A DNA stretch of 64,000 nt from Labrenzia sp. DG1229. GTDB lineage: Bacteria; Pseudomonadota; Alphaproteobacteria; Rhizobiales; Stappiaceae. Under the pieces are notes generated by a model. That model had not been told where the DNA came from. It saw only the letters and a program-made list of their open reading frames with translations, and searched no databases. Positions 47,329-56,764 of the stretch are shown here, piece by piece (positions within the stretch are counted from its first letter, which is position 1; the number at the start of each line of letters is the position of its first letter). The DNA lies in assembly GCF_000521215.1 (NCBI RefSeq), contig NZ_KI928927.1:94440-158439 (forward strand), written 5' to 3'. The translations under genes and the position numbers were made by a program.

Positions 47329-47382
47329 CCCGCCCGCAATCAGGGTCGTGACCTGTTTGGCGCGGCAACGCGCGTGCCCCAC

Positions 47383-47582
47383 GCGGGAGAGCCCAGGTCA
47401 AATGACCCGGCGCCGAAGGAGCAACCGCCCCGGAAACTCTCAGGCAAAAGGACCGCATGGGGAACAACGCTCTGGAAAGCAGTGCTCCACTGAACTGCTC
47501 AGTGGACTGCTCACCGAAGGAGTAACTGCCGCGCGACTCATGGCGTTCGACAGGAAAACTCTCAGGTACTCGGACAGAGGGG
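47383..47582 (+). ncRNA. Tandem glycine riboswitch
   Basis: Two glycine aptamers in series. The first (about 47383-47461) shows GCGGGAGAGCC, GCCGAAGGAGCAA and GGAAACTCTCAGGCAAAAGG. The second (about 47470-47582) shows CTCTGGAAAGC, CACCGAAGGAGTAA and GAAAACTCTCAGG then CGGACAGAGG. These are the conserved core elements of the class. Glycine binding normally turns on the downstream cleavage genes. gcvT starts 63 bases after the second aptamer; I see no clear T-run terminator, so control of translation initiation is possible. Confidence 0.95.
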
Positions 47583-54490: not shown

Positions 54491-54655
54491 AAACGAGGAT
54501 AATTTTCGAATAATTGCATGATTGACGTTTCGCAAACTTGATTTCGACGGGCGCAGATTGGTTGGTGACAGATGATACCCCTGATAAGAGTAAGCAACAG
54601 GAAGCTGACCGACCTGACGCACCAGTTGCTGTCCAAACGAAGGCTGACAGCGCAT

Positions 54656-55240
54656 ATGACCGACCCGCTTGATATCGATAGTCGTCAGGACCTGCCGCAG
54701 GAGTGGCTTTTTCTTCTCCGGGAATACCCCAGGAATGAGTGGCTGGAGCATGGCAATCTTGGCCCGTTGACGAATTTCTGGCTCAACCGTCATGACGGTT
54801 TCCGCAATTTCGGCAACACCCTGATTTCCATGTTGCGCCAGTTTCGGGAAGGCCAGATTCCACCCGAAAGGTTTGGAGGCATGTTCGCCCCGCAGCTCCA
54901 GCATTTCCTCACCGAATTGCACAATCATCACATGATCGAGGATCACCACTATTTTCCCGTCTTCATGGAGGCGGAAAAACGCTTGCTCCCTGGCTTTGAG
55001 CTTCTGGAAAACGATCATGAGGTCATTCATCACCGCATCGAGACGGTGATCGGCAGCGCCAATGAACTGATCGGTCAGCTGCAGGAGGGCGATCGGGACG
55101 CAATTCGGCGGGCCTCGGACAATTATGCGGCGACCAGCGATTTGCTTCTCATGGGGCTCAAGCGGCATCTTGCCGATGAAGAGGATCTGATCGTCCCGAT
55201 CGTACTTTCTCGAGGCGAAAGTGAACTGGGTCTGTCTTGA
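54656..55240 (+). CDS. Hemerythrin HHE domain-containing protein
   Basis: About 194 residues. A four-helix hemerythrin-like bundle with metal-binding histidines and acids in LHNHHMIEDHHYFPVF, LLENDHEVIHHRI and LKRHLADEEDLIVPIVL. The N-terminal part (WLEHGNLGPLTNFWLNRHDG) adds another His-rich helix. The family binds di-iron for O2 or NO sensing or storage. ATG 54656 and ATG 54572 are both possible starts; neither has a clear ribosome-binding site. Confidence 0.85.
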   Translation: MTDPLDIDSRQDLPQEWLFLLREYPRNEWLEHGNLGPLTNFWLNRHDGFRNFGNTLISMLRQFREGQIPPERFGGMFAPQLQHFLTELHNHHMIEDHHYFPVFMEAEKRLLPGFELLENDHEVIHHRIETVIGSANELIGQLQEGDRDAIRRASDNYAATSDLLLMGLKRHLADEEDLIVPIVLSRGESELGLS

Positions 55241-55289
55241 GACAAATGCGAAACTGACACGGTCATGAAACTATCCTTTAAACATCCGG

Positions 55290-55318
55290 CTTGACTCTGG
55301 GTGCCGGATAAAGCATCT
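55290..55318 (+). promoter_or_regulatory. Candidate promoter for the tyrS leader transcript
   Basis: CTTGAC (55290-55295) and GCATCT (55313-55318) are 17 bases apart, an arrangement like the rhizobial CTTGAC-N17-CTATAT, though the -10 matches at only three of six positions. The start of transcription would fall at about 55325-55328, on the ATG of the leader ORF at 55327. Confidence 0.45.
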
Positions 55319-55326
55319 AAAATGGC

Positions 55327-55392
55327 ATGACCAAGATCGCAGCATCCTTCGCGTATTTTTATTACGTCACCGACATACCGGCGGCTGCGTAG
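55327..55392 (+). CDS. Tyr-rich leader peptide upstream of tyrS
   Basis: 21 codons from ATG 55327 to TAG 55390-55392. Tyr is at residues 10, 12 and 13 and Phe at 8 and 11, in the run FAYFYYV. There is no ribosome-binding site upstream and the predicted transcript start coincides with the ATG, so it may be translated as a leaderless message. The Tyr codons lie 14 bases before an antiterminator segment, as needed for ribosome stalling to control the terminator ahead of tyrS. Leaderless leader peptides are known for trpL in Sinorhizobium. Confidence 0.7.
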   Translation: MTKIAASFAYFYYVTDIPAAA

Positions 55393-55446
55393 GATCTTGC
55401 TCACTTGATCGAAACCTAAAAAAGCCGCCGCGTCAGGCGGCTTTTT
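55338..55446 (+). terminator. Transcription attenuator of tyrS
   Basis: Segment 1 CGCAGC (55338-55343) pairs with segment 2 GCTGCG (55384-55389). Segment 2, as CGGCGGCT (55379-55386), also pairs over eight bases with segment 3 AGCCGCCG (55423-55430). Segment 3 in AAAAGCCGCC (55420-55429) pairs with segment 4 GGCGGCTTTT (55436-55445), closing a terminator that ends in TTTTT at 55446. The 1:2, 2:3 and 3:4 pairs are mutually exclusive. A ribosome stalled at the Tyr codons leaves 2 free to pair with 3; one at the stop codon covers 2 and lets the terminator form. Confidence 0.8.
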
Positions 55447-55486
55447 GGTTTCAAGGGCTCCTGGCGGGGAAACCAGGAAGCCGAGA

Positions 55487-56764
55487 ATGACCAAACACAT
55501 GATCGAAGCCGGTAAACCGGCGACCAAGCTCAAATCGGAAGCGCTCGCGGTGCTTCTGGAACGCGGCCTCGTGCACCAGTGCACAGATGTGGAAGCGCTG
55601 GACCGAACGCTTTCCGAAGGACCGGTCACCGCATATGCCGGGTTCGATGCCACCGCCGCCAGTCTCCATGTCGGGCACCTGATGCCGCTGATGACCATGC
55701 GCTGGCTGCAAAAGCTAGGTCATCGTCCCATCGTCGTCCTCGGTGGCGGCACCAGTCAGATCGGCGATCCGAGCTTCAGGAATGATGCAAGGCCGCTTCT
55801 GGAAGAACGGCAGATATCCGCCAATATCGCTACCATTCGCCGGTCAGTCGAAAGGCTTGTCGACATGAACGGTCCCGATGGTGCCCTGCTTGTCGACAAC
55901 GCGGAGTGGCTCAACGAGTTCCGCTTCCTGGAATTTCTCCGCGACTATGGTTCCCAGTTCACTGTCAACCGCATGATGACGTTCGACAGCGTCAAGTCGC
56001 GCCTCGATGCGCAGATGCCGCTGACCGTGCTGGAATTCTGTTACATGATGCTGCAGGCGGTGGACTTCCTGGAATTGGCGAAGCGCCACGACTGCGTGTT
56101 GCAGGTCGGGGGATCCGATCAGTGGGGCAACATCGTCAACGGTGTCGAACTCGGCCGACGTGACGGCCGCAAGCTGCACGGCCTCACGGTTCCTCTGCTG
56201 ACGACTGCAAGCGGGGCCAAGATGGGCAAGACAGCCGCCGGTGCTGTCTGGTTGCATCCCGAACATCTGTCACCGTTCGGCTTCTGGCAGTTCTGGCGCA
56301 ATACGGCGGATGCCGATGTCGGCAAGTTCCTCCGCCTTTTCACGGAATTGCCGATCAAGGAAGTCGAAAGATTGTCCGAATTGCAGGGTGTGGAGCTGAA
56401 TGAAGCCAAGAAGATCCTTGCGACCCAGGTAACGACCATCGTTCACGGACCCGAGGAAGCGCGTGCGGCCTTGCAACAGGGAGATGCCTTGTTCTCAGGC
56501 GGCGATGACCTCCTCGAACCGACCCACAAGCTGCCGCTTGAACACCTTGCCGAAGGTCTGGGACTTCTCGAGCTCGTCGTCGCAATCGGATTTGCGGCAT
56601 CCAATGGCGAAGCCCGGCGTCTGGTGGAAGGTGGTGGTGTACGGCTCAACAACCGGATCATCGAGGACCCGCGCCGCCGGATCGGCACCGGTGACCTGAA
56701 AGCAAACGATCGGCTCGCCGTTTCGGTTGGAAGGCGCCGTAAGGCGTTGGTCGGGTTCGAGTGA
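55487..56764 (+). CDS. tyrS: Tyrosyl-tRNA synthetase
   Basis: 425 residues; class I synthetase charging tRNA-Tyr. Tyr pocket AYAGFDATAASLHVGHL includes the HVGH form of the HIGH motif; VGGSDQWGNIVNGVEL and GAKMGKTAAGAVWL (KMSKS equivalent) follow. The C-terminal S4-like domain begins near NGEARRLVEGGGVRLNNR. ATG 55487 has AGGAAG upstream; a second ATG is at 55499. It is the only structural gene after the attenuator, so transcription of the gene itself is probably controlled by Tyr-tRNA supply. Confidence 0.97.
   Translation: MTKHMIEAGKPATKLKSEALAVLLERGLVHQCTDVEALDRTLSEGPVTAYAGFDATAASLHVGHLMPLMTMRWLQKLGHRPIVVLGGGTSQIGDPSFRNDARPLLEERQISANIATIRRSVERLVDMNGPDGALLVDNAEWLNEFRFLEFLRDYGSQFTVNRMMTFDSVKSRLDAQMPLTVLEFCYMMLQAVDFLELAKRHDCVLQVGGSDQWGNIVNGVELGRRDGRKLHGLTVPLLTTASGAKMGKTAAGAVWLHPEHLSPFGFWQFWRNTADADVGKFLRLFTELPIKEVERLSELQGVELNEAKKILATQVTTIVHGPEEARAALQQGDALFSGGDDLLEPTHKLPLEHLAEGLGLLELVVAIGFAASNGEARRLVEGGGVRLNNRIIEDPRRRIGTGDLKANDRLAVSVGRRRKALVGFE

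Follow-up and report, generated by a model that had tools for sequence, protein, structure and literature searches.

What controls the second of two tyrosyl-tRNA synthetase (TyrRS) genes in a bacterium that carries both? The question is raised by a locus of Labrenzia sp. DG1229 within the window, as we call the whole 64,000-nucleotide stretch of DNA that was analysed. Tyrosine is known to be sensed through TyrR or T-boxes. The original prediction proposed transcription attenuation of this tyrS gene by a leader peptide containing Tyr, and we are highly confident that this first level of control, Tyr-codon attenuation at the terminator, is real. Although attenuation is supported, the prediction covers the transcriptional half only, and a hairpin at the Shine–Dalgarno (SD) sequence together with an alternative pairing (4:5) adds a probable translational half. 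Our preferred reading, which we consider probable, is that a Tyr-responsive, ribosome-mediated attenuator with two levels, and not a plain attenuator, controls the second TyrRS gene. The case is built by sequence comparison, from conservation, spacing and the covariation of the outer 3:4, the 4:5 and the 5:6 pairings (Table 1), and from these we infer the transcript start, ribosome stalling, termination, SD release and the link to tRNA charging.

Table 1. Features of the tyrS2 leader region, with positions in the window
Feature	Position	Strand	Remarks
Candidate promoter: TTGACT (55291-55296) and weak -10 (about ATCTAA, 55315-55320)	55291..55320	+	predicted +1 at or adjacent to the leader ATG
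Leader ORF, 21 codons, MTKIAASFAYFYYVTDIPAAA, probably leaderless	55327..55392	+	Tyr-rich ORF at 50/50 named TyrS2 loci and in 64/64 distinct leaders
Regulatory codons Tyr-Phe-Tyr-Tyr (TAT TTT TAT TAC)	55354..55365	+	
Segment 2 (CGGCGGCT), antiterminator 5' arm	55379..55386	+	complementary to segment 3; nearly invariant
Terminator hairpin 3:4, outer pairs GAAACC/GGTTTC	55411..55452	+	terminator scan, folds, swap test
Segment 3 (AGCCGCCG), 5' arm of terminator	55423..55430		
Terminator 3:4 core (GCCGCC/GGCGGC), loop GCGTCA	55424..55441		T-run TTTTT at 55442-55446
Part of segment 4 (CGTCAGG), able to pair with segment 5	55431..55437	+	swap test, 19 loci, 13 families
SD hairpin 5:6	55456..55482		absent from the original prediction
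Segment 5 (GGCTCCTGGCG)	55456..55466	+	CCTGGCG (55460-55466) pairs with 4; GGCTCCTGG (55456-55464) with 6
Segment 6 (CCAGGAAGCC) with tyrS2 SD AGGAAG (55475-55480)	55473..55482	+	in hairpin 5:6
tyrS2, controlled gene, second tyrosyl-tRNA synthetase, 425 aa	55487..56764	+	NCBIfam tyrS 348 bits against a cut-off of 113.8

The 86 loci compared reduce to 64 distinct Stappiaceae leaders once those with the same sequence from the ATG onwards, in many cases a single genome listed under different names, are dropped (L050 was added by hand to the 64 leaders and its duplicate L026 left out). Because the leader is conserved in 64/64 of these, it is more than a product of chance. The 21-codon reading frame first noted in the window, with Tyr at codons 10, 12 and 13, was recovered exactly. 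Tyr codons number three in 59/64 leaders and two in 5/64, and one to three Phe codons are also present in 63/64, so that Phe shortage might act too. Segment 2 lies 14 nt after the last Tyr codon in 61/64 leaders and 17 nt after it in 3/64, and this conserved spacing bears out the codon placement that had been proposed for a stalling model. Given the ribosome footprint, a ribosome with the last Tyr codon in its A site would halt right before segment 2, which a ribosome at the leader stop codon would cover. The alignment of relatives suggested with the original prediction was carried out on the Stappiaceae and showed conservation of the Tyr codons, of segments 2 to 4 and of the spacing of these elements. 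In Roseibium-type leaders the stretch from after the Tyr codons through GGATCTTG (55366-55399) is nearly base-invariant, third codon positions and an ATA codon included, which exceeds the apparent need of 2:3 pairing.

A transcript start on the leader ATG had also been proposed, and the promoter spacing fits. TTGACT lies 36 nt before the ATG in the window, and TTGAC is found 34-38 nt before it in 64/64 leaders (at 36 nt in 39), an exact distance that is biased because, among in-frame ATGs, the one nearest 36 nt was chosen. The strict sigma-70 rule of the promoter scan called no promoter at the leader. In all 64 leaders, GGAG, AGGA, GAGG, AAGG and GGAA are absent from the 13 nt before the ATG. 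Promoter spacing and the absent SD both fit a leader mRNA that is probably leaderless, its transcript starting on the ATG; the trpL RNA of Sinorhizobium meliloti starts on its ATG according to excerpts of two reports (PMC7298713, PMC10117765).

Segment 2 is, as originally read, perfectly complementary to segment 3, and the T-tailed terminator 40 bases before tyrS (ATG at 55487) was called by a terminator scan, which gave 3 terminator-like sites between 55000 and 55700 against 0.5 expected. The RNA from 55327 to 55447 folds at -45.2 kcal/mol, compared with -28.8 (sd 3.7) in 200 shuffles (z -4.5). Since both use segment 3, the 2:3 and 3:4 pairings are mutually exclusive. The outer 3:4 stem covaries in swap tests, whose permutations ignore shared ancestry (0/2000 with 64 rows, 1/2000 with 31 rows; L174, L180 and L196, which are near copies, and L188 and L191 were left out of the swap tests). 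The same test of 2:3 gave 5837/20000, which is uninformative because segment 2 is nearly invariant and no covariation is possible. General 1:2 pairing gave 25/2000 (64 rows) and 97/2000 (31 rows); the particular pair proposed for 1:2, CGCAGC/GCTGCG, is present in the window but in only 8/64 leaders, and was rejected as a conserved stem. After the terminator stem, 49/64 leaders have 6 T in 8 nt. Only 3-4 T of 8 are found in 5/64 (Pannonibacter carbonis type and Pseudovibrio hongkongensis type), and these leaders keep hairpin 3:4, as would suit a hairpin that may also serve an SD switch.

That such a switch might exist is suggested by the hairpin 5:6. At least three-quarters of the SD is paired in local folds of 32/35 loci (the exceptions being L187, L170 and L206), and 5:6 covaries (cognate -15.48 against permuted -11.84), with 0/20000 permutations as good both in 31 loci and in 19 loci. 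The competing pairing 4:5, tested as the terminator loop plus the start of arm 4 against segment 5, also covaries when 19 loci from 13 families are compared (-11.68 kcal/mol for cognate partners and -9.21, sd 0.52, for permuted ones; 0/20000), and the loop alone against segment 5 gave 37/20000 in 31 loci. Controls yielded 1697/20000 for the first 30 nt of the gene, 11876/20000 for the spacer before the hairpin, 988/20000 for the reversed region and 11014/20000 for the SD arm. Because segment 3 plus the loop covaries with the same region too (14/20000), the exact 4:5 helix is not fixed. The 4:5 signal is weaker within Stappiaceae alone (47/5000 and 153/5000), and in 6/22 rows (L155, L183, L190, L193, L198 and L203, the last with a wrong gene start in that test) the cognate pairing was matched or beaten by at least 9 of 21 noncognate partners.

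Folding bears on when the SD could open. In transcripts ending before segment 6, forced 2:3 and forced 3:4 structures differ by a mean of 0.0 kcal/mol (sd 3.8, 64 leaders); the 2:3 conformer lies at or below 3:4 in 34/64 leaders and forms 4:5 in the six folds inspected. Equilibrium folds of the whole leader favour 3:4 even when a ribosome is stalled (mean probability 0.93) and give no SD release, the mean unpaired fraction of the SD being 0.15 in the stalled state, 0.13 with 2:3 forced and 0.17 with the ribosome at the stop codon. Release at equilibrium was rejected, given that the SD is mostly paired in every ribosome state, so any opening must be kinetic. Among 50 gene starts in the window, that of tyrS2 has the tightest fold (-17.8 kcal/mol, the mean being -8.1), an optimum that pairs GGTTTC of the outer terminator arm with GAAGCC at the SD and is not 5:6, which alone gives -15.4. 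This competitor, the local optimum in the window and in many Roseibium leaders, works against SD release because antitermination would free GGTTTC. With the SD paired at equilibrium and such a competitor at hand, the second level is probable and not settled.

The two-level switch would have an OFF state of 3:4 with 5:6 and an ON state of 2:3 with 4:5. Transcription would begin on the leader ATG, and ribosomes would load without an SD. When Tyr-tRNA is ample, the ribosome should reach the stop codon and cover segment 2, so that the 3:4 terminator forms; in any read-through RNA, 5:6 would form and hide the SD of tyrS2. When Tyr-tRNA is low, a ribosome stalled at the Tyr codons would leave segment 2 free to pair with segment 3 and the terminator would fail, whereupon the freed segment 4 might pair with segment 5 during RNA synthesis and the SD in segment 6 could stay open.

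The distribution of the leader among the Stappiaceae follows that of tyrS2. The other tyrS copy of the window's genome (G000:C4) is 49% identical to tyrS2, and 66/87 genomes of the family have a TyrS2-level match (66-100% identity) as well as a second tyrS; TyrS2 is absent from the remaining 20, which make up three genera, and from G016. The model R1, which spans the Tyr codons to the terminator and was built from 26 Stappiaceae leaders, gives 66-110 bits immediately before tyrS2 in 66/66 TyrS2 genomes, scores that are high by construction among the leaders used to build it. The informative parts of the survey are the absence from the 20 genomes without TyrS2 (R1 at most 22.3 bits, with 0/20 above 23 bits) and the presence in G016 (48.9 bits), where the leader is followed by no more than a remnant of tyrS2 with two stops. 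G016 (L164, L220) is a Pseudovibrio genome, and its Tyr leader is still recognisable before the decayed tyrS2.

Other tyrS genes gave little of the kind. The leader hairpin occurs in 0/14 Stappiaceae TyrS1 upstream regions of 330 nt each, and 11/14 contain no ORF of 6-60 codons holding at least two Tyr; at L122 and L123 there are ORF fragments that finish in MYYSA or MYYSV and resemble the 3' end of a glutamine synthetase gene lying upstream, and L125 has one ORF with scattered Tyr. Among 30 other alphaproteobacterial tyrS loci, 27 are without such a Tyr-rich ORF, and at L099, L104 and L108 the ORFs hold two or three Tyr in scattered positions. Searching 397 genomes of the order for TyrS2 at E <= 1e-146, a cut-off too strict for the leader-linked TyrS of G349 (E 2e-132), found 13 Stappiaceae and, at 55-58% identity, 7 others. 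Six of these seven lack an upstream ORF shorter than 45 codons with two Tyr, and L139 has one with scattered Tyr.

Leaders of the same build occur outside the Stappiaceae. Matches to R1 at E <= 0.01 were found in 45/297 order and 42/289 class genomes, and matches to the model R2 at E <= 0.003 in 136/385 class genomes, most of them weak in both cases. Inspection of 23 weaker R1 matches gave 10 aromatic leaders, 2 trpL and 11 rejected by eye; among 29 R2 matches inspected, 21 had aromatic leader ORFs, and L194, L195, L199, L200, L202, L204, L205 and L207 were set aside. With five loci in both sets counted once and L164 (G016) removed, the 10 and 21 leaders amount to 25 separate loci, spread over 14 families besides the Stappiaceae. 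Of the 21 aromatic R2 loci, 16 had not been used to build R2, and 20 show a -35-like box upstream of the start at a distance of 35-39 nt (35-37 nt in 19 of them); the box stands at 35 nt in L170 (TTGAA), L172 and L174 (GTGAC) and L173. Neither the promoter nor segments 5 and 6 were put there by the search, because R1 and R2 cover none of them.

For the genes behind these leaders, NCBIfam searches with fragments of about 115 residues, whose scores lie below full-length cut-offs, point to TyrS (L170, L176), prephenate dehydrogenase (L158, L173) and DAHP synthase of class II (L155) and class I (L172). Translations read by eye add further DAHP synthases (L174, L189, L192, L196, L197, L198, L206), trpS behind the L190 leader and a GNAT-like gene behind L179, L180, L183, L184 and L187; in these last five leaders Trp, Tyr and Phe codons follow one another directly, as though a shortage of any aromatic amino acid were being sensed. 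Behind L191 and L203 is an ORF without assigned identity. A stand-alone S4-domain ORF resembling the TyrRS C-terminus follows aromatic leaders with the codon runs YF (L186, G728), WYF (L188, G832), WYF (L193, G755) and YYYWF (L201, G664), and each of these four genomes has a full TyrS elsewhere. Three of the small S4 proteins align with TyrS residues 345-422 (E 2e-7 to 7e-4).

G349 and G672 again have two TyrS, one of them behind a leader. In a 51-row TyrS tree, a single branch, modestly supported (64/91; present in 66% of the bootstrap trees), has the leader-linked TyrS on one side, and L214 and L218 are sisters (100/95). On balance we lean towards an old alphaproteobacterial family of leaderless aromatic-codon leaders with a terminator and an SD lock, whose codons were retuned into a ribosome-read aromatic regulon. 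The codons would, on this mildly favoured reading, be Tyr, Trp or Trp-Tyr-Phe mixtures, and its targets might well comprise tyrS2, trpS, DAHP synthases, prephenate dehydrogenase, the S4-domain protein and the GNAT-like gene. In the window's own genome a trpE(G)-like gene is likewise preceded by a leader, here with Trp-Trp-Trp (L165, G000:C3:36403-36493), and the similarity of its segments 2 and 3 to those of the Tyr leader hints at common descent of the Trp and Tyr leaders.

The reading that competes most directly with a two-level switch is a plain transcription attenuator, in which the Tyr switch acts on the terminator only, the SD hairpin sets basal translation and 4:5 has no role. The equilibrium folds, with the SD closed in every state, and the good T-run of most leaders speak for it, but 4:5 covariation across 13 families and the persistence of the 3:4 hairpin where the T-run is poor speak against it; we regard this reading as unlikely, though deserving of serious weight. 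Those same poor T-runs might instead mean that 3:4 does not terminate and that SD exposure alone is controlled, a proposal we find very improbable given that an intrinsic terminator is called in the window and that 49/64 leaders have the 6 T of 8.

We give still less credence to T-box-like or protein-mediated control of the leader in place of ribosome stalling. The near invariance of the block from the Tyr codons to GGATCTTG in Roseibium-type leaders, beyond apparent pairing needs, speaks for it. However, a T-box match is found neither in the window at the gathering score nor in 55250-55600 up to E 1, the conservation of the ORF, of the spacing at its start and of the distance between Tyr codons and segment 2 is characteristic of a ribosome, and the residues read vary with the gene, being Trp before trpE and trpS and mixed aromatic before DAHP synthase. 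There is a negligible chance that the ORF is accidental and the terminator serves the upstream gene (ORF 54572-55240). The hairpin does lie downstream of that ORF, but upstream of the promoter the species diverge widely in sequence and yet retain the leader, which accompanies tyrS2; leader conservation already contradicts this idea.

The two-level attenuator, if it operates as proposed, would apply a known mechanism to a new amino acid and a duplicated synthetase, probably with an SD lock coupled to it. In the Gram-positive tyrS T-box, tRNA-Tyr charging controls the TyrRS gene and the RNA reads the tRNA directly, without a leader ORF. The tyrS2 leader would respond to the same cue, but through a leader ORF, and a T-box was not found. 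Rhizobial trpL (rnTrpL) and the trp, phe and his attenuators are alike in having a leader ORF with regulatory codons, 2:3 against 3:4 and a terminator; the tyrS2 leader departs from the trpL type in that its codons are for Tyr, its target is a duplicated synthetase gene, and the 4:5 and 5:6 pairings around its SD covary. Excerpts of PMC8632094 supply the closest precedent, uORFC-8-2 before cysS in Rhodobacterales, which combines an alphaproteobacterial synthetase gene, tandem cognate (Cys) codons in a leader ORF and a terminator; it differs in reading Cys rather than Tyr and in having two prominent stems, with no SD switch described in those excerpts. From the same source, uORFC-13-1 before aroF is similar in its aromatic-codon leader before a DAHP synthase near a terminator, and differs in being from Acholeplasma, RBS-led and with a Phe codon (PMC8632094, in excerpt). 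Translational T-boxes of ileS in Actinobacteria share the synthetase gene and the sequestor/anti-sequestor hairpins at the SD but, as described in the excerpted parts of PMC1262725, sense tRNA without ribosome stalling.

The original prediction had presented Tyr-leader attenuation of tyrS as not known to be described in this group, and no Tyr leader attenuator was found in the literature searched, to which the 2004 survey by Vitreschak and colleagues did not belong; none appears in the excerpts of PMC9413887, PMC1262725 and PMC5343134. Every Rfam family stayed below its gathering threshold on this leader (best leader family on the + strand, Phe_leader, 21.5 bits against 55), with 0 matches in 13 related loci. 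If true, a Tyr-codon attenuator would add tyrosine to the amino acids read by stalling ribosomes, and with a 4:5/5:6 relay a switch that is read by the ribosome would govern termination as well as the initiation of translation. A route from a transcriptional to a translational switch is suggested by relatives whose T-runs are poor. A possible reason for keeping a second TyrRS is to have a copy that is made when Tyr-tRNA falls. Elsewhere in the window, at 47374-47465, lies a glycine riboswitch aptamer (Rfam RF00504, 67.9 bits).
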